Assembly: GCA_004762155.1 (NCBI GenBank) | Contig: SIHP01000002.1 | Location: forward strand, 62,001-126,000 | DNA: 64,000 nt | Direction: 5' to 3' | From: Flavobacteriaceae bacterium | GTDB lineage: Bacteria > Bacteroidota > Bacteroidia > Flavobacteriales > Flavobacteriaceae | In this document: positions 42,530-51,530 of the stretch, piece by piece | Position numbering within the stretch: the stretch's first letter is position 1 | Layout: each line of letters opens with the position of its first letter | Made by a program: the position numbers and the translations under genes | The notes under the pieces: generated by a model | Seen by the model: the letters and a program-made list of their open reading frames with translations, nothing else | Databases searched by the model: none | Told to the model about the DNA's origin: nothing

Positions 42530-42537
42530 TATATTTG
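42530..42537 (+). promoter_or_regulatory. Promoter -7 element of tRNA cassette copy 2
   Basis: TATATTTG followed by CACTCGCAT, nearly the same as before copy 1. TTTC at 42507-42510 lies 19 bases upstream, one base from the TTTG consensus. Confidence 0.65.
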
Positions 42538-42580
42538 CACTCGCATATTAACAATGCAAACGTTCTTAAACAAAGACTAC

Positions 42581-42652
42581 GCGAAAGTAGCTCAGGGGTA
42601 GAGCATCACCTTGCCAAGGTGGGGGTCGCGGGTTCAAATCCCGTCTTTCGCT
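42581..42652 (+). tRNA. tRNA-Gly(GCC)
   Basis: A 72-base tRNA with acceptor GCGAAAG/CTTTCGC and anticodon GCC in loop TTGCCAA. It is the second copy of the gene at 28707-28778. Confidence 0.95.
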
Positions 42653-42702
42653 CGAAACCTATATATAATATACCAATGATTGTGTTTAGTACAATCAATC
42701 AT

Positions 42703-42788
42703 GCTGAAGTGGTGGAATTGGTAGACACGTTGGACTTAAAATCCAATGAGTAGTAATGCTCGTACGGGTTCAAGTCCCGTCTTCAGTA
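42703..42788 (+). tRNA. tRNA-Leu(TAA)
   Basis: An 86-base class II tRNA with anticodon TAA in loop CTTAAAA and a long variable arm. It is the second copy of the gene at 28571-28656. It starts 50 bases after tRNA-Gly, so one transcript probably carries both. Confidence 0.95.
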
Positions 42789-42790
42789 CT

Positions 42791-43563: not shown

Positions 43564-44559
43564 TTATCTTCCTCCACCTTGAAGAAAATCACTTGAAGGA
43601 GTTCCTACAAAAGATCTTGGTATACTAGGAAATTCATCCCCATCTGTTAATACATAATAATAAGTTCCTTCAGGAAACTCTGGAGTAACTCCTGTTCTTC
43701 CGTTAGTTTCATCAAGTGTTCCTAACCCATCTACATATTCATAATCTGCTGAATAGGCTCCATTATACTCAGAACAAGGAGCTGTTACTCCGTCTCCAGG
43801 TCTATTCCCTGTTAATAATTCATAACTAGAAGTCATTGCAATAACTGCTGAAGTAGCATCATCTGCATCCGTATACGCATATTTATAATAGATAGGAAAA
43901 CCATCCGCTGCCCATCCAACTTGGACCATTTCTGTTCCTGTTGCATTAACAATTAAATTATTTAAGGCAGGCGCACCATGGTGGTGATATTTACCTGTAG
44001 GTTGTACATGAGAATAATTACAATCCAAACCAATAGGAACATTTAATGCTTCTAAATTCCAATCCCAATTTACATCCGGATCATCAATTCCGTTATGTGG
44101 CCAAGGTTCAGCCGCAATAGGATCTAATTCAATTCCATTTAATAAAATCCCGAATTGATATTCAGGTCCATTATCTCCTTGAAGAGAGACTAAAGACCCT
44201 GTAATTTCTGGCTCTGTAGTTACTGTATATGTTTCATTTTGTTCAGTCACATCTCCATTCATGAAAGTCCCTATCTGATGATCTGGTATACTATTAGTCT
44301 CAATAGTTCTTGTAGCTGCAGTTTCATCAACTGTAATCACAACCGATGGTGTAAGATCTAAATCCGTATCACAAACACCAGAACCATCTACAACATCTTG
44401 TTGCTCACAATCTGAAGTATCTGTACCATCATCAACCACAACAATATCATCATCCGTATCATCAGAGTTGTCATCATTACTACATGATTGGATTATCATT
44501 ACTGATAAAATAGCTATCAAAAAAAGCTTATTCAATTTAAAACATTCCATACCTAACAT
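43564..44559 (-). CDS. YHYH-domain lipoprotein
   Basis: A 331-residue lipoprotein: lipobox IIQSC near residue 25, then an Asp-rich segment (about 27-70). The body contains the His cluster GKYHHHGAP and HVQPTG, which fits the YHYH domain, plus GWAADGFPIYYKYAY and FPEGTYYYVLTDGDEFPSIPR, also typical of that family. The ending LQGGGR is conserved in related proteins. YHYH proteins are of unknown function; the His cluster suggests metal binding (inference). A start three codons later (44550) is equally possible. Confidence 0.85.
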   Translation of the reverse strand: MLGMECFKLNKLFLIAILSVMIIQSCSNDDNSDDTDDDIVVVDDGTDTSDCEQQDVVDGSGVCDTDLDLTPSVVITVDETAATRTIETNSIPDHQIGTFMNGDVTEQNETYTVTTEPEITGSLVSLQGDNGPEYQFGILLNGIELDPIAAEPWPHNGIDDPDVNWDWNLEALNVPIGLDCNYSHVQPTGKYHHHGAPALNNLIVNATGTEMVQVGWAADGFPIYYKYAYTDADDATSAVIAMTSSYELLTGNRPGDGVTAPCSEYNGAYSADYEYVDGLGTLDETNGRTGVTPEFPEGTYYYVLTDGDEFPSIPRSFVGTPSSDFLQGGGR

Positions 44560-44688: not shown

Positions 44689-45399
44689 ATGAGAAACATA
44701 TCCGTTATTTTATTAGTATTTTTCTTTATTGCAACACAAGCACAAACTTCTGTTTTTAACAGTTTGCTCCAAAAAAATGTTGACAGTAAAGGGAATGTAA
44801 ATTATAAAAATCTTAAAAAAGAAGAAAACAAATTAGATTTATATTTAAGCTACCTAAATAAAACTTCCCCATCTAAATCTTGGTCGAAAAACAAACAAAA
44901 AGCATTTTGGATTAATGCTTATAATGCATATACTATTAAAATAATTTTAGACAACTACCCAACAAAGAGTATTACTAAAATTAAAAACAAAGGAAAAACC
45001 GCTTGGAAAACCCCTTTTGCTAAAGTTGGAGGTAAAACGTATACATTAGATCATATAGAACATAAAATTTTACGTGAAAAATTATTTGATCCAAGAATTC
45101 ATGTTGGTGTAAATTGTGCTTCGGGCTCATGCCCAAAACTACATAATGTTGCTTTTACAGAAAGCAATGTAAATACGGAATTAGAAAAATTAATGAAGTC
45201 TTTCATTAATGACCCTAAGCGTAATAAAACTAGCAAGAAAGATATGATTCATATTTCTGAAATATTTAATTGGTTTAAAGTAGATTTCACTAAAAAAGGA
45301 TCTATTATTGATTATATCAACAAATATGCGAGCCAAAAAATAAGCAGTGATGCAAAAATTCATTACCTGCCTTACGATTGGAATTTAAATGGAAAATAG
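44689..45399 (+). CDS. DUF547 protein, first gene of the arsenosugar-type cluster
   Basis: A 236-residue protein with a signal peptide (about 1-18, ending TQAQ). DUF547 hallmarks are KQKAFWINAYNAYTIKIIL, TLDHIEHKILR, DPRIHVGVNCASGSCPKL and the C-terminal DYINKYAS. The fold resembles transglutaminase-like or papain-like enzymes, with Cys and His residues in the right region, but activity is unknown. It overlaps no gene; the next ORF (CMD-like) begins 31 bases after its stop. It commonly accompanies arsenosugar genes. Confidence 0.85.
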   Translation: MRNISVILLVFFFIATQAQTSVFNSLLQKNVDSKGNVNYKNLKKEENKLDLYLSYLNKTSPSKSWSKNKQKAFWINAYNAYTIKIILDNYPTKSITKIKNKGKTAWKTPFAKVGGKTYTLDHIEHKILREKLFDPRIHVGVNCASGSCPKLHNVAFTESNVNTELEKLMKSFINDPKRNKTSKKDMIHISEIFNWFKVDFTKKGSIIDYINKYASQKISSDAKIHYLPYDWNLNGK

Positions 45400-45430
45400 T
45401 ATCTTTATTTTCTATCAAAAAAACAAACGA

Positions 45431-45766
45431 ATGTCTAAAACATATTATGATCCTGCTGATTTAAGAAAGTTTGGTAAGATTACAGAATGGAACGAAGAAC
45501 TTGGAAACAAGTTCTTTGATTATTATGGAAAAGTATTTGAAGAAGGTGCATTAACAGCTCGTGAAAAAAGCTTAATTGCCTTAGCAGTTGCACATACTGA
45601 ACAATGCCCATATTGTATTGATGCCTATACCAAAGACGGATTACAACGCGGAATTACCAAAGAACAAATGATGGAAGCAATTCATGTTGGCGCAGCAATA
45701 AAAAGTGGAGCAACTTTAGTTCATGGAGTTCAAATGATGAATAAAGTGAATAAATTAGAAATGTAA
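45431..45766 (+). CDS. AhpD/CMD-like protein associated with arsenosugar synthesis
   Basis: About 111 residues from the ATG at 45431. The carboxymuconolactone decarboxylase-like core has LIALAVAHTEQCPYCIDAYTK with Glu57, Cys59 and Cys62, the AhpD-type active site, and MMEAIHVGAAIKSGATLVHG. It matches the peroxidase-like family described beside arsS genes. A thiol-based redox or arsenical-reducing role is inferred. It is followed by an imperfect palindrome before arsS. Confidence 0.85.
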   Translation: MSKTYYDPADLRKFGKITEWNEELGNKFFDYYGKVFEEGALTAREKSLIALAVAHTEQCPYCIDAYTKDGLQRGITKEQMMEAIHVGAAIKSGATLVHGVQMMNKVNKLEM

Positions 45767-45786
45767 GTTTGTAAATTATAGATAAA

Positions 45787-45843
45787 TGTCTGGTCGAACG
45801 CAGTCGAGACCTAATTAACTTCTCGACTGCGCTCGACCAGACA
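45787..45843. repeat. Imperfect 23-base palindrome (REP-like) between the CMD-like gene and arsS
   Basis: Arms at 45787-45809 and 45821-45843 around an 11-base loop with one mismatch (45798 against 45832). The CTCGACTGCGCTCGACC core is far richer in G+C than its surroundings and resembles palindromes repeated in other flavobacterial genomes. No T run follows. Confidence 0.7.
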
Positions 45844-45856
45844 AACTGAATACTAA

Positions 45857-46909
45857 ATGAAAAAATCCCTTTTAGCAAGAAATAACGATTTAGCAAATAC
45901 ACAACGTCAATTAGAAATTTTATCAAACGGAATTTTTGCTGATGGAGAATTACTAACTTTTGCTAATAAAATAAAAGAAACAAATCAGTTTCCGTTACGT
46001 CCTAAAAAATTAGAAATTTTACAAATAAACTTGGGTTATATGTGTAACCAAGTTTGTGCACATTGTCATGTAGATGCTGGTCCGGATAGAAAAGAGATAA
46101 TGACTACTGAAACCATGCAACAATGCTTGGATGTAATAAAAAAAACAGGTGCGCATACCTTAGATTTAACTGGTGGAGCTCCAGAAATGAATCCTAATTT
46201 TCGATGGTTTGTTGAAGAAGCAGCTAAAGCAGGAATTAAAGATTTTATTGTTCGCTCTAATTTAACGATTATTAGAGCTAATAAAAAATATTACGATTTA
46301 CCTAAGTTCTTTAAAAAACATAATGTTCATGTAGTTTCTTCAATGCCACATTGGACACGTGGAAAAACAGACAAACAACGTGGTAGTGGAGTTTTTGATA
46401 AATCCATTAAAGCATTACAAATGTTAAACGAAGTTGGTTACGGAATGGAAGGATCTAATTTAAAATTAGATTTAGTGTATAATCCATCTGGAGCATTTTT
46501 ACCAGGAGATCAAATGGCTTTAGAAAATGATTTTAAAAAAGCTTTGAAAGACGATTTCAATATCAGTTTTAATTATTTATTTGCTATTACAAACCTACCT
46601 ATCAGTAGGTTTTTAGATTATTTAATTGCTTCTGAAAATTATGAAGACTATATGTTTGCATTAGTTGAAGCTTATAATCCAGCTGCGGTAGAAAATGTAA
46701 TGTGTACAAATACTCTTTCTGTAAGTTGGGATGGTTATTTATATGATTGTGATTTTAATCAGATGTTAAATCTAAAAATAAATAGTAAAGTAAAACATAT
46801 TGCAGACTATAACGAAGAGTTATTGCAAGACAGAAATATTATTATCAATCAATACTGTTATGGCTGTACAGCTGGTGCAGGAAGCAGTTGCCAAGGTGTT
46901 GTTGCGTAA
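45857..46909 (+). CDS. arsS: Radical SAM protein ArsS (arsenosugar synthesis)
   Basis: A 350-residue radical SAM enzyme with the CxxxCxxC cluster at Cys63, Cys67 and Cys70 (GYMCNQVCAHCHVDAGP). The C-terminal third contains MCTNTLSVSWDGYLYDCDFNQML and YCYGCTAGAGSSCQG, matching the family (TIGR04167/DUF3641 type). ArsS is reported to add the 5'-deoxyadenosyl group to dimethylarsinous acid, making the arsenosugar precursor. In some organisms the family is a selenoprotein; here Cys codons are used at the positions that I can see and no in-frame TGA is present. Confidence 0.92.
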   Translation: MKKSLLARNNDLANTQRQLEILSNGIFADGELLTFANKIKETNQFPLRPKKLEILQINLGYMCNQVCAHCHVDAGPDRKEIMTTETMQQCLDVIKKTGAHTLDLTGGAPEMNPNFRWFVEEAAKAGIKDFIVRSNLTIIRANKKYYDLPKFFKKHNVHVVSSMPHWTRGKTDKQRGSGVFDKSIKALQMLNEVGYGMEGSNLKLDLVYNPSGAFLPGDQMALENDFKKALKDDFNISFNYLFAITNLPISRFLDYLIASENYEDYMFALVEAYNPAAVENVMCTNTLSVSWDGYLYDCDFNQMLNLKINSKVKHIADYNEELLQDRNIIINQYCYGCTAGAGSSCQGVVA

Positions 46910-46926
46910 GTACATTATAATAAAGG

Positions 46927-47385
46927 ATGGAAATTAAACAGCTAATATTAATTTTTGTAAAAATCACATGTGTAATCATTGTATTATTTATAGGGATGAT
47001 GGCTTTTTACTGGAGAAGTGATGTTTCAAATCAAGAATCATATAAGCAGTTTCTTAACACCCCTTTAATTATACAACAACCTTCTGCAATAACAGAAAGA
47101 CCAACAGGATATCGGTTTAAAAAACACAATGTATCTGATTTTTATCCTGAACAATACGAAGCAGAATTGACTAAAAAAATTTACACTATTGGTGATAAAA
47201 TTCAATTTCATGCTGCTAAATCTTATTATAGCCTGCATGTAAGTACCACTTACTATTTAATAGGAAGAGATACTTTAAAATCTGGAGAAGTTGTTGAGTT
47301 TGAATATTATCTTAGTAATGGCTTACCAAGAGCATGGGAAACAATGGATGATTACTTAAAACGAAAAAAAGTACAAGAGTATTAA
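46927..47385 (+). CDS. Small membrane-anchored protein of the arsenosugar cluster
   Basis: A 152-residue protein with one N-terminal membrane helix (LILIFVKITCVIIVLFIGMMAF) and an extracytoplasmic domain rich in Tyr, Thr and Lys. No motif is recognised. It starts 17 bases after arsS and 21 bases before the rhodanese gene in a tight same-strand run, so it should belong to the same transcript. Confidence 0.7.
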   Translation: MEIKQLILIFVKITCVIIVLFIGMMAFYWRSDVSNQESYKQFLNTPLIIQQPSAITERPTGYRFKKHNVSDFYPEQYEAELTKKIYTIGDKIQFHAAKSYYSLHVSTTYYLIGRDTLKSGEVVEFEYYLSNGLPRAWETMDDYLKRKKVQEY

Positions 47386-47406
47386 TTCTAAAATAAAACA
47401 TCAGAA

Positions 47407-47898
47407 ATGAAAAAAGCTATTCTCTTATTAATATTTATATCATGTAATCTATTTTCTCAATCTGATTTAAATCAATTGCTGAAAAAACACAATCAAGAAA
47501 CGATTCCATATATATCTGTAGATAGTTTACAAAAAATATCTAACGACGTTATTTTATTAGATGCAAGAGAAGAAAAAGAATTTCAAACAAGTCATTTAAA
47601 GAATGCTTTGTATGTTGGTTATGAAAAATTTAAACTAAAAAAAACAATTAAAAACCTACCTAATAAAGATGCTAAAATTGTAGTGTATTGCTCGTTAGGT
47701 GTACGATCTGAAGATGTTGCAGAAAAGCTTAAAAAAGCTGGTTATACAAACGTTTTGAATTTATATGGTGGTATTTTCGAATGGAAAAACAACAACAATA
47801 AAGTTTTTAATTCTTACGAGAAAGAAACCGAAAAAGTACATACTTGCACACAAGAATGGAGCAAATGGTTAGTTAAAGGAGAAAAAATATATGAGTAA
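47407..47898 (+). CDS. Secreted rhodanese-like protein
   Basis: A 163-residue protein with a signal peptide (about 1-18). The rhodanese fold has ILLDAREEKEFQTSHLKNALYVGY and the active loop VVYCSLGVRSED with Cys95. Rhodanese domains carry sulfane sulfur, and related ones act as arsenate reductases; a sulfur-transfer or thioarsenical role is inferred from the context. It overlaps the glycosyltransferase gene by eight bases. Confidence 0.85.
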   Translation: MKKAILLLIFISCNLFSQSDLNQLLKKHNQETIPYISVDSLQKISNDVILLDAREEKEFQTSHLKNALYVGYEKFKLKKTIKNLPNKDAKIVVYCSLGVRSEDVAEKLKKAGYTNVLNLYGGIFEWKNNNNKVFNSYEKETEKVHTCTQEWSKWLVKGEKIYE

Positions 47899-48490
47899 AA
47901 ACTTAGTATTAATTTTTACTAGAAATCCTGAATTAGGAAAAGTAAAAACAAGATTAGCAAAAACTATAGGAGATCAAAAAGCACTTGAAATCTATACCTT
48001 ATTACTTCAAAAAACAAAAGATACTACTCAAAATTTAACTTGTGATAAAGCTGTTTATTATTCTGTAAAAATTAGAGAAAACGATATTTGGAACGAAAAC
48101 ACTTATCAAAAACACCAGCAAAATGGCGAAGATTTAGGTATTCGAATGGAAAATGCTTTTATAAATGCATTTAACACTGGTTATGAAAAAGTGATTATTA
48201 TTGGAAGTGATTTATTTGACTTAACACCTAAACATATTAATGATGCTTTTGAAAAGCTAAACACAAATGATGTTGTAATTGGTCCAGCTGAAGATGGTGG
48301 TTATTATTTATTAGGAATGAAAAAAATTCATCCTTCAATATTTAAAAACAAAAAATGGGGAACTTCAACTGTAAGAAAAGATACCTTAAACGACCTAAAA
48401 AACAATAAAATTACTCTTTTAGAAGAATTAAATGACATAGATGTGTATGATGATCTAAAAAAACACGACTCATTGTTAAAAATCATTTAA
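47891..48490 (+). CDS. TIGR04282-type arsenosugar-associated glycosyltransferase
   Basis: A 199-residue nucleotide-diphospho-sugar transferase-like protein. LVLIFTRNPELGKVKTRLAKTIGDQKALEIY is the start typical of the family, IIIGSDLFDLTPKHINDAF holds the likely DxD-like site, and VIGPAEDGGYYLLGMKK is its other hallmark. It overlaps the rhodanese gene and is two bases from the next gene. It probably attaches a sugar or aglycone to the arsenical; the acceptor is not established. Confidence 0.88.
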   Translation: MSKNLVLIFTRNPELGKVKTRLAKTIGDQKALEIYTLLLQKTKDTTQNLTCDKAVYYSVKIRENDIWNENTYQKHQQNGEDLGIRMENAFINAFNTGYEKVIIIGSDLFDLTPKHINDAFEKLNTNDVVIGPAEDGGYYLLGMKKIHPSIFKNKKWGTSTVRKDTLNDLKNNKITLLEELNDIDVYDDLKKHDSLLKII

Positions 48491-48492
48491 TC

Positions 48493-49239
48493 ATGTACAA
48501 AAACTACACTACTAAAAAAGCAACATTCTTTACTGCTTTCATTATTTTAATTTCGTTAAACACGTATAGTCAATGCACCGAAAACGGTACTAATTTTGGA
48601 AACAACACCGCAACACCTAGTTATAATATCTCAGGTGATGTTTCCGTAACTTTAAATACAAACAATACTGTTACATTAAATTTAGCTAGTAATTTTAGTA
48701 CTGCTTCTGGCCCAGATGTAAGAGTATACTTAATCGATTCAAATGGAATGTCTGATGCAGAAGTTAATGCTGAAGTACATAACAATTCTGTCAACGGAAT
48801 AAGTGCTTTTAATAATATTCCTTTAGGTGAAGTAAGTGCTAATGGTATGCAATCTTTTACTGTTGCTATTCCAGAAAACACAGATATTTCTTCTTATGAC
48901 AAAATATTGTTTTATTGTTTACAATTCAATCAATTTTGGGATGTAGGCTCTTTCTCTTCTTTTACATCAAGCTCTTGTAGTGTTTTAAGTATTGAAGAAA
49001 ACACACTTAGTAGAGTTGGTGTATTTCCAAATCCTGCGACAACTAGTATTCAATTAGCAAACATTGATTCTGCCAATACAGAAATTCGTATTTTTGATTT
49101 CTCTGGAAAAAAAGTATTTCAACAATTAAAAGGAAATACTCAAAACACCATTGATATTTCTAATTTTAAAAAAGGATTTTATGTAGTATCAATTACAGAA
49201 AACAACAAAAAGCTTTCTAAAAAATTGGTCATACAGTAA
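48493..49239 (+). CDS. DM13-domain protein with T9SS type A sorting domain
   Basis: A 248-residue protein. Signal peptide (about 1-27), a DM13-like beta domain (about 30-160) with GDVSVTLNTNNTVTLNLASNF, GPDVRVYLID and YDKILFYCLQFNQFWDVG, then a C-terminal sorting domain from about residue 175: RVGVFPNPATTSIQL and KKGFYVVSITENNKKLSKKLVI. It should cross the outer membrane through T9SS and be attached to the surface. DM13 domains are suspected redox modules. Its presence inside the arsenosugar operon is notable. Confidence 0.85.
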   Translation: MYKNYTTKKATFFTAFIILISLNTYSQCTENGTNFGNNTATPSYNISGDVSVTLNTNNTVTLNLASNFSTASGPDVRVYLIDSNGMSDAEVNAEVHNNSVNGISAFNNIPLGEVSANGMQSFTVAIPENTDISSYDKILFYCLQFNQFWDVGSFSSFTSSSCSVLSIEENTLSRVGVFPNPATTSIQLANIDSANTEIRIFDFSGKKVFQQLKGNTQNTIDISNFKKGFYVVSITENNKKLSKKLVIQ

Positions 49240-49247
49240 GTAACAAT

Positions 49248-50063
49248 ATGAAAAAACGAACATTACAAGAAACTATAGACTTTTTAAAGTTAAACGGAAT
49301 TACAAATCCATCAATAGGAATTGTTTTAGGTACAGGTTTAGGTAAACTGGTAAATGAAATAACTATTGAAAAAGAAATTCCATATGCAGATATTCCTAAT
49401 TTTCCGCAAGCAACTGTAGAGTTTCATTCTGGTAAATTAATTTACGGAGAATTATCTGGTAAAAAAGTACTTGTAATGTCTGGGCGTTTTCATTTATACG
49501 AAGGTTACACTCCTTGGGAAGTTACATACGGAATTAGAACCATGCATGGTTTAGGTATTCAAAATTTATTAATTTCAAATGCCTCAGGTGCTATTAACCT
49601 AAACTATAAAAAAGGAGAATTAATGTTAATTGACGATCATATTAACTTACAAGGAAGTTCTCCCCTAGCCTTTAATGGCTGTAAAGATTTTGGAAATATT
49701 TTTGCAGATATGCTTGAGCCTTATTCTAAAAAATTAAATAATTTACTGAAAAATATTGCTCAAAAAAACAACATAACGCTACACGAAGGTGTTTATGCAA
49801 GTGTTTTAGGACCACAATTAGAAACCAGAGCAGAATATAGAATGTTACAAATTTTAGAAACTGACGCTGTTGGTATGAGTACTGTACCCGAAGTTATTGT
49901 TGCTAAACAGTTAAACATTCCTTGTTGTGCAATTTCTGTGTTAACAGACGAATGCGACCCTAAAAACTTGCAACCTGTAGATATTACTGATATTATTGCT
50001 GTTGCTGGTAAAGCTGAACCAAAATTAGTAACACTTTTTAACGAATTAATAGCAGAACTATAA
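49248..50063 (+). CDS. Purine nucleoside phosphorylase I
   Basis: A 271-residue trimeric-type PNP. VLGTGLGKL holds the phosphate-binding loop, FPQATVEFHSGKLIYGEL and VMSGRFHLYEGYTPWEVTYGIR follow, then NASGAIN and MSTVPEVIVAKQL near the base site. It splits purine nucleosides with phosphate. In this context it may remove adenine from the deoxyadenosyl-arsenical made by ArsS, a role proposed for the cluster that is only inferred here. It overlaps the DoxX gene by one base (TAATG). Confidence 0.92.
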   Translation: MKKRTLQETIDFLKLNGITNPSIGIVLGTGLGKLVNEITIEKEIPYADIPNFPQATVEFHSGKLIYGELSGKKVLVMSGRFHLYEGYTPWEVTYGIRTMHGLGIQNLLISNASGAINLNYKKGELMLIDDHINLQGSSPLAFNGCKDFGNIFADMLEPYSKKLNNLLKNIAQKNNITLHEGVYASVLGPQLETRAEYRMLQILETDAVGMSTVPEVIVAKQLNIPCCAISVLTDECDPKNLQPVDITDIIAVAGKAEPKLVTLFNELIAEL

Positions 50064-50476
50064 TGCAAAACAAACAAATAGCAATTTTAACCATGAGATT
50101 AATCCTTGGTTTTATTTTCTTTTTCCAAGGTTTTGGAAAGATTTTTAAATTTGGACTAAATGCCGTTTACAATAACTTTTTTTTAAAAAACTATAGTGAA
50201 TTACTTCCTGATTTTTTACTGTTATTTTCTGCTTACTACACTTCTATTATAGAATTGGTCGGTGGGCTTTTATTAATCATTGGCTTTAAAAGAGACTATG
50301 CCTTATACGCATTAGCATCTGTATTGATTATTGTAACTTTTGGTCATGGTTTAAAAGATCCTATTTGGGATTTATCCGATGTGATGTACAGAGCAATACT
50401 TTTAGTTGGCTTATTATTACTACCTAAAGAACTTGATAAATATTCTATAGATTTTTTAATAAAGAAAAACAAATAA
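50063..50476 (+). CDS. DoxX-family membrane protein
   Basis: A 137-residue protein with four membrane helices: LRLILGFIFFFQGFGKIFKFG is read as MRLILGFIFFFQGFGKI at the start, then SIIELVGGLLLIIGFKRDYALY and VMYRAILLVGLLLLPKE. This is the DoxX pattern (often MauE/SURF4-like). It may take part in membrane redox or quinone-linked steps. It begins within the PNP stop codon and ends six bases before arsM. Confidence 0.85.
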   Translation: MQNKQIAILTMRLILGFIFFFQGFGKIFKFGLNAVYNNFFLKNYSELLPDFLLLFSAYYTSIIELVGGLLLIIGFKRDYALYALASVLIIVTFGHGLKDPIWDLSDVMYRAILLVGLLLLPKELDKYSIDFLIKKNK

Positions 50477-50481
50477 TTAGA

Positions 50482-51450
50482 ATGAGTTATTTAGATACTA
50501 CCCACAATGTATATAAAGAAGCTGCATTAACGCCAGATATTGGTTTATGTTGTACAACAAATCCTATTTGGGAATTACCTGGATTAAAAATTCCAAAAAT
50601 AATGCAAGAAATGAACTACGGTTGTGGTTCTACAGTTCACGCACGTGATTTAACCAATAATCCTAAAATGTTATACGTTGGTGTTGGTGGCGGAATGGAA
50701 CTATTACAATTTGCTTACTTTAATAGAAATAAAGGTGGTGTAATTGGTTTAGATGTTGTTGATGAAATGTTAGAAGCATCAGCTAAAAACTTTAAAGTTG
50801 CCGAAGAACAAAACGAGTGGTTTAAAAGTGATTTTGTTGATTTACGTAAAGGTGATGCTATGGACTTACCAGTAGAAAGTAATTCTATTGATGTTGCTGC
50901 TCAAAACTGTTTATTCAATATTTTTAAATCGGATGATTTAAAGAAAGCTATTGCAGAAATGTATCGTGTTTTAAAACCTCACGGCCGTTTGGTAATGAGT
51001 GATCCTACGTGTGAACAAGAAATGAACGACGAATTACGTAACGACGATCGTTTACGTGCTTTATGTTTAAGCGGAAGTTTAACAATTGCTGATTATGTAA
51101 AAGCGTTAACTGATGCAGGTTTTGGAACTATAGAAATTAGAGCTAGAAAACCTTATCGTATTTTAGACCCTAAAAATTATCCTACTGACGAGTTGATTTA
51201 TATAGAATCTATTGAAGTTGCTGCAATTAAAGATCCAATGCCAGCAGATGGACCTTGTATTTTTACAGGAAAAGCTGCCATTTATTACGGTGATGAAGAT
51301 TATTTTGATGACGGCTTAGGACATACTTTATTAAAAAATCAACCTTTAGCTATTTGCGATAAAACAGCCGCAGCTTTACAAGCTTTAGGAAGAGATGATA
51401 TTTTCTTTTCAGAATCTACTTTCCATTACGATGGTGGTGGATGCTGTTAA
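50482..51450 (+). CDS. arsM: Arsenite methyltransferase ArsM of the arsenosugar type
   Basis: A 322-residue SAM-dependent methyltransferase. The SAM site is LYVGVGGGMELLQF, followed by IGLDVVDEMLEAS and GDAMDLPVESNSIDVAAQN. Candidate arsenic thiols are Cys23-Cys24 (IGLCCTTN), the Cys in MNYGCGST, Cys in SDPTCEQE and the final GGGCC. It methylates arsenite to methyl- and dimethylarsenicals, the substrates for ArsS. The last gene of the cluster; a hairpin follows. A decayed copy of its 3' end lies at 55141-55302. Confidence 0.92.
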   Translation: MSYLDTTHNVYKEAALTPDIGLCCTTNPIWELPGLKIPKIMQEMNYGCGSTVHARDLTNNPKMLYVGVGGGMELLQFAYFNRNKGGVIGLDVVDEMLEASAKNFKVAEEQNEWFKSDFVDLRKGDAMDLPVESNSIDVAAQNCLFNIFKSDDLKKAIAEMYRVLKPHGRLVMSDPTCEQEMNDELRNDDRLRALCLSGSLTIADYVKALTDAGFGTIEIRARKPYRILDPKNYPTDELIYIESIEVAAIKDPMPADGPCIFTGKAAIYYGDEDYFDDGLGHTLLKNQPLAICDKTAAALQALGRDDIFFSESTFHYDGGGCC

Positions 51451-51492
51451 TTTTTGATTTAGCAAAAAACAACTTATTGAAATCAAATAGAT

Positions 51493-51530
51493 ATCGAGAT
51501 ACATTTTATTAATGTATCTCGATGTTTTAC
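51493..51530 (+). terminator. Terminator of the arsenosugar operon
   Basis: Thirteen-base arms ATCGAGATACATT (51493-51505) and AATGTATCTCGAT (51511-51523), then a T-rich tail. The rest of the 370-base gap to 51821 holds no gene. Confidence 0.85.

Follow-up and report, generated by a model that had tools for sequence, protein, structure and literature searches.

The ten-gene run at positions 44689-51450 of the window (the whole analysed stretch of 64,000 nucleotides from contig SIHP01000002.1 of a marine Flavobacteriaceae bacterium; coordinates below are positions within it) appears, as judged by its genes, to be an arsenosugar-type operon in which an arsenic module (AhpD, ArsS, ArsM) is coupled with a separable sugar module (rhodanese, TIGR04282 protein, purine nucleoside phosphorylase or PNP, DUF547 protein). 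Some bacteria keep the sugar module without the arsenic genes, and the later steps are therefore likely a general sugar-activating route that the arsenic chemistry plugs into. What seems new here is the family-wide comparison, which splits the arsenic from the sugar module and suggests that a nucleotidyltransferase acts in the pathway.

The genes of the arsenic module, all on the + strand as the rest of the run, are well defined. ArsS, the radical S-adenosylmethionine (SAM) enzyme of arsenosugar synthesis (45857-46909; TIGR04167, 439.6 bits, cut-off 300), and an ArsM of the arsenosugar type (50482-51450; NF038099, 570.2 bits, cut-off 400) both score above the curated family cut-offs, which makes the run an arsenosugar cluster by family membership and bears out the ArsM/ArsS core recognised in an earlier note on this DNA. 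ArsM carries a CCTTNP motif and a GGGCC end, both kept in 67/67 relatives. An AhpD/CMD-fold protein (TIGR04169, 196 bits, cut-off 120) features a CxxC pair kept in 98/98 relatives. Its gene is listed as an open reading frame (ORF) from 45389, but the start is probably the ATG at 45431 (45431-45766), since printed relatives begin a few residues before YYDP. AhpD matches the C-terminal part, and ArsM the N-terminal part, of the ArsM-AhpD fusion family NF041537 (E 4.2e-5 and 6.6e-21, respectively, both below its cut-off). A review describes the adenosylation of arsenic by a radical SAM enzyme. The sugar module includes a predicted exported DUF547 protein (44689-45399; PF04784, 97.9 bits), a predicted exported rhodanese (47407-47898; NF045521, 198.9 bits, cut-off 145), the TIGR04282 protein (47891-48490; 223.6 bits, cut-off 134), and a PNP of the trimeric type (49248-50063; NF006054, 321.8 bits, cut-off 218). 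The roles of the AhpD-like protein and of the rhodanese had been called undescribed, but the NCBI families TIGR04169 and NF045521 are already named for the arsenosugar neighbourhood.

Neighbourhoods were compared within a sample of 299 genomes of the same family, 215 of which have ArsS above cut-off. One hundred arsS loci of about 20 kb each, one per genome, have been read; they were taken from the listed better-scoring matches and do not sample the 215 at random. Some of the places listed, including several close to contig ends, were skipped, and loci L107 and L128 are cut by contig ends. On the arsS strand, AhpD was found in 98 loci, PNP in 73, ArsM in 67, rhodanese in 65 and DUF547 in 60; ArsM was counted in cis, and 33/100 arsS genomes lack it there. 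A TIGR04282-type gene is on the same strand in 96 loci, with a score of at least 200 bits in 80. TIGR04283-type glycosyltransferases of family 2 (GT2) were found in 52 loci, fatty-acid-hydroxylase type proteins in 37, flavin adenine dinucleotide (FAD) oxidoreductases in 29 and SusC in 11. The order AhpD-ArsS-rhodanese-TIGR04282-PNP-ArsM is not due to chance, because 49 of the 62 loci share it that hold AhpD, ArsS, a TIGR04282-type gene, PNP and ArsM; in the commonest arrangement DUF547 and TIGR04283 are mostly placed downstream. In 80 named loci, fetched separately, some cut by contig ends and from species that may overlap with the first set, AhpD was found in 79, PNP in 58, rhodanese in 54, ArsM in 48, DUF547 in 39, a TIGR04283-type gene in 30, DM13 in 12 and DoxX in 2. 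By gene content, the core of the run is a widespread flavobacterial cluster. The three further genes of the run are local extras that do not generally belong to the system, as DM13, DoxX and the small membrane protein were found in 5, 1 and 0 of the 100 loci, respectively. Conservation of the accessory genes beside arsS, a check named in the earlier note, thus holds for AhpD, rhodanese, TIGR04282, PNP and DUF547, but not for these three. In a few loci (L095:10454-18537, L142:1408-9472, L145, L179, L188) SusC, SusD, a sodium/solute symporter and a phosphoesterase lie between ArsS and the rhodanese, which suggests the import of some organic compound into the pathway.

The cluster described here is a variant of the common form featuring TIGR04283, because no GT2 of this family was found over the cut-off anywhere in the whole genome (best score 66.1 bits, cut-off 182). 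The DUF547 gene lies upstream of arsS, as in only 7 of the 60 loci hosting it, and downstream in the other 53. With DUF547 upstream, TIGR04283 missing and three local genes added, this organism may make an end product unlike that of the relatives.

Separation of the two modules emerges from the 84 genomes of the sample below the ArsS cut-off, 43 of which were picked for completeness of at least 96%. AhpD (TIGR04169) and arsenosugar-type ArsM (NF038099) were above cut-off in none of the 43; full-length TIGR04282 was found in 14, and both NF045521 (the rhodanese) and TIGR04283 were present in 13 of the 43. Eleven arsS-free module loci (nine fetched stretches, L163 and L168) were read among the 14 TIGR04282-positive genomes; L169, where TIGR04282 and PNP have no adjacent rhodanese or TIGR04283, was included in the tree described below and is outside the eleven, and G184 and G236 were left unread. 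TIGR04282 and PNP are adjacent in all eleven, the rhodanese precedes TIGR04282 in ten, TIGR04283 follows in ten, and DUF547 is found in six; the rhodanese of genome G242 (L163) and TIGR04283 of genome G289 (L282) are located elsewhere in the genome. TIGR04282 is present in 100/100 arsS genomes, in the arsS locus in 80 and elsewhere in 20/20 of the others, and the copy in trans adjoins PNP in G108, G135 and G229. In this sample the arsenic module was not seen without TIGR04282, and the sugar module was seen without ArsS, AhpD and arsenosugar-type ArsM. In L274 (731-1111), a sequence weakly related to TIGR04169 (76 bits, cut-off 120) lies some 3 kb away from a sugar module that has no arsS.

The same data could be read differently. 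The entire run may be dedicated to arsenic, the module-only genomes being recent losers of arsS with decaying genes, or the module may be fed in them by another pair of methyltransferase and radical SAM enzyme. We regard this as unlikely, though several observations speak for it and against a separable sugar module. In a PNP tree built by a quick method, in which 52 of 96 inner forks are open, genomes hosting the sugar module only are nested within arsS-bearing ones at several places (7 changes, 2 of them forced by starred branches), a pattern that suits loss of the arsenic genes and does not tell which of the two modules came first. TIGR04282 is also lacking in 29 of the 43 arsS-negative genomes. 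At L168 (1849-12132), an ABC importer, another ArsM-like methyltransferase and a different radical SAM protein stand directly before the series rhodanese-TIGR04282-PNP-DUF547-TIGR04283, and perhaps another chemistry feeds the same sugar module there. In contrast, an arsenic-only run fits poorly with the retention of full-length TIGR04282 and rhodanese in arsS-negative genomes that all lack AhpD and arsenosugar-type ArsM above cut-off, and our own profiles, the only ones applied, picked up neither ArsS nor ArsM next to the module in 10 of the 11 arsS-free loci. Decay is also hardly apparent. Ten of ten invariant TIGR04282 residues are kept in 11/11 arsS-free copies, and median uncorrected pN/pS values, with synonymous sites near saturation, range from 0.21 to 0.44 over five genes (PNP 0.21, TIGR04282 0.33, TIGR04283 0.35, rhodanese 0.37, DUF547 0.44). 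The arsS-free module sequences look under selection.

The PNP has PDB relatives down to E 2.3e-86, and used as query it matches only once in the genome at E<=1e-10. PNP genes were found in 265/299 genomes, with or without arsS, nearly always in single copy; residues at seven compared motifs are identical in genomes without arsS, and position 234 is Asp in all rows compared, a residue that may matter for binding adenine and accepting 6-aminopurine nucleosides. Because it is a general single-copy enzyme with the same motif residues where arsS is missing, PNP is, on sequence grounds, not an arsenic-only enzyme. This distribution, and the finding that PNP stands alone in 5 of the 8 arsS-negative genomes first read, would also suit an ordinary salvage enzyme riding in the operon with no part in arsenosugar synthesis. 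Such a passive role is improbable, as PNP lies within the arsS locus in 73/100 relatives and adjoins TIGR04282 in 11/11 arsS-free module loci, and the pairing of a radical SAM enzyme with a phosphorylase has a precedent in HpnH/HpnG (see below). The placing of a PNP step after ArsS, already put forward in the earlier note, is supported.

The nearest structural neighbours of the TIGR04282 protein are mostly nucleotidyltransferases. Behind 3cgx, its best folds are MM2497 (a probable nucleotidyltransferase, which we take to be a CofC), 3-phosphoglycerate guanylyltransferase, Rv2983 (presumably FbiD), IspD and KdsB, and sugar 1-phosphate nucleotidyltransferases are also found among the best matches. 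The GKxKTRL basic loop and conserved acidic residues of TIGR04282 resemble those of the CofC/MobA group. The protein has a CofC-type fold but scores below the cut-off of the CofC equivalog TIGR03552 (36.1 bits, cut-off 105), and is likely a CofC-type nucleotidyltransferase, as predicted from its structural neighbours. The glycosylation step assigned to it earlier is hence doubtful, and the reading implied by its NCBI name, in which TIGR04282 is a true glycosyltransferase and directly moves the arsenosugar, is not probable given the nucleotidyltransferase folds that follow 3cgx, the loop and acidic residues presumed to be CofC/MobA-like, and the separate TIGR04283-type GT2 present in 52/100 related loci. 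The basic-loop pattern is found in 79/81 TIGR04282-type copies scoring 200 bits or more, and in 0/23 of those below 200 bits. Divergent TIGR04282 paralogues were found near ArsS in L095 (10454-11137), L142 (8786-9472) and L072 (8058-8825).

The ORF list confirms ten + strand genes in a single compact run, as previously described, and the family names given to nine of the products are sustained by NCBIfam/Pfam matches, the tenth (46927-47385) having no family. Rhodanese and TIGR04282 genes overlap by 8 bases, PNP and DoxX by 1 base; gaps measure 31 bases between DUF547 and AhpD, 90 between AhpD and ArsS, 17 between ArsS and the small membrane protein, 21 between this and the rhodanese, 2 between TIGR04282 and DM13, 8 between DM13 and PNP, and 5 between DoxX and ArsM. 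Tight spacing is therefore confirmed, as 7 of 9 junctions overlap or are shorter than 25 bases with ATG 45431 as AhpD start, but an 11-base DUF547/AhpD overlap is probably not real. A terminator-like hairpin, with a 17-pair stem and a T-rich tail, was found by consensus scan only at 51489-51527 (+), after the run. The ten genes are likely to form a single arsenosugar operon.

With somewhat better than even confidence we propose that this operon joins the arsenic and sugar modules in a stepwise pathway. ArsM would convert arsenite to dimethyl arsenic, which the CxxC pair of AhpD likely holds reduced for ArsS. By analogy with the reported enzyme type, ArsS would transfer the 5'-deoxyadenosyl group of SAM to arsenic. 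PNP would likely remove adenine with phosphate, yielding 5-deoxy-5-dimethylarsinoyl ribose 1-phosphate, and the predicted nucleotidyltransferase TIGR04282 would turn the sugar 1-phosphate into a nucleoside diphosphate (NDP) sugar. A glycosyltransferase, likely TIGR04283 in many relatives, would then move the arsenosugar to an acceptor; TIGR04283 is missing from this genome, which therefore calls for some other transferase or for a different product at the end. Rhodanese, DUF547, DM13 and DoxX proteins, all predicted in the envelope, may serve export, attachment, and thiol or oxidant upkeep, roles at which we can only guess. More tentatively, as a possibility to which we give less than even weight, arsenosugar synthesis in Flavobacteriaceae may be an AhpD-ArsS-ArsM add-on feeding an arsenic-independent nucleoside-to-NDP-sugar pathway. 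A 5'-modified adenosine would give pentose 1-phosphate through PNP, TIGR04282 would activate this to an NDP pentose for transfer by TIGR04283, the exported rhodanese and DUF547 protein would finish the product in the envelope, and bacteria with the sugar module only would make an arsenic-free pentosyl conjugate.

The cluster likely spans cytosol and envelope, because rhodanese and DUF547 N-termini are hydrophobic, the DM13 protein has a type IX secretion system (T9SS) tail and DoxX is predicted in the membrane. By a simple hydrophobicity rule applied to mechanically called ORFs, which is not a signal-peptide predictor, the N-terminus is export-like in 62/65 strong rhodanese relatives and 54/60 strong DUF547 relatives; the same rule passes ArsS in 0/100, ArsM in 0/67, AhpD in 1/98, PNP in 3/73 and TIGR04282-type proteins in 14/104 cases. 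Direct transfer of sulfur onto cytosolic arsenic is unlikely because the rhodanese N-terminus is export-like. The AlphaFold model of the DUF547 protein has a pLDDT of 93.7, and no match to PDB folds was found at E<=0.001. Among the local genes, 48493-49239 (+) encodes a predicted surface protein combining a DM13 domain (PF10517, 41.9 bits, cut-off 25) and a T9SS type A sorting tail (TIGR04183, 59.7 bits, cut-off 23; PF18962, 62.1 bits). The DoxX membrane protein (50063-50476, +; PF07681, 41.2 bits, cut-off 23.6) lies between PNP and ArsM likewise in L181, L182 and L194, which are near this genome. DoxX turns up only sporadically, further off also in L156 and L200. The small orphan protein (46927-47385, +) is likely membrane-anchored by its hydrophobic N-terminus; a set of 5.8 billion proteins yielded only four more relatives at E<=0.001.

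The genome is Tenacibaculum-like by sequence: the nearest named relatives belong to Tenacibaculum and Polaribacter, ArsS identity reaches 89-93% in the three top rows, and the best named matches of the TIGR04282 protein are from Tenacibaculum. Upstream of the run, a divergent gene starting at 44559 (43564-44559) encodes a lipoprotein-like product with a YHHHGAP stretch, which we take to be of YHYH type, and another small gene lies behind it. Genes for tRNA Gly(gcc) and Leu(taa) are located further upstream, at 42581-42789; the ORF 42535-42753, which covers this site, probably does not encode a protein.

Arsenosugars are a main organic form of arsenic in seaweeds and seafood, and to our knowledge the steps beyond ArsS have no assigned enzymes. 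The cluster offers candidates for these steps (PNP followed by a nucleotidyltransferase and, in many relatives, finally a GT2), which occur also without arsS in a family where 215/299 genomes have ArsS. If our reading is true, the curated name 'arsenosugar biosynthesis glycosyltransferase' is misleading for TIGR04282, and arsS-free marine bacteria hold a new sugar conjugate.

The ArsM-ArsS arsenosugar pathway was reportedly worked out by Xue in 2017 and 2019 and by Cheng in 2021. The run described here shares with it ArsM and ArsS of the named families and arsenic deoxyadenosylation as the central step; it differs because candidates for later steps are in the same run, along with genes for AhpD, a predicted exported rhodanese, DUF547, DoxX and DM13-T9SS, and TIGR04283 is missing. 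CofC/FbiD guanylyltransferases have a fold in common with TIGR04282, and presumably also the basic loop and acidic residues, but the score of TIGR04282 is below the CofC cut-off, as said above. A rhodanese-like protein, as we take SseA to be, is paired with DoxX also in mycobacteria. There DoxX, SseA and SodA form a membrane oxidoreductase complex (PMC6930017). Only the DoxX/rhodanese pairing appears to be shared with this complex: DoxX is found in 1/100 related loci, and no protein of the superoxide dismutase family is present among the ten of the run, to which the search was restricted. In bacteriohopanepolyol synthesis, the radical SAM enzyme HpnH adds a 5'-deoxyadenosyl group and a putative phosphorylase, HpnG, then removes adenine, as reported in PMC12583986. 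The acceptor is a hopanoid carbon there and arsenic here, and ArsS scores 31.3 bits with the HpnH family TIGR03470, below its cut-off of 225.05; yet the order of the two reactions, radical SAM adenosylation followed by a phosphorylase, would be a precedent for the order of ArsS and PNP.

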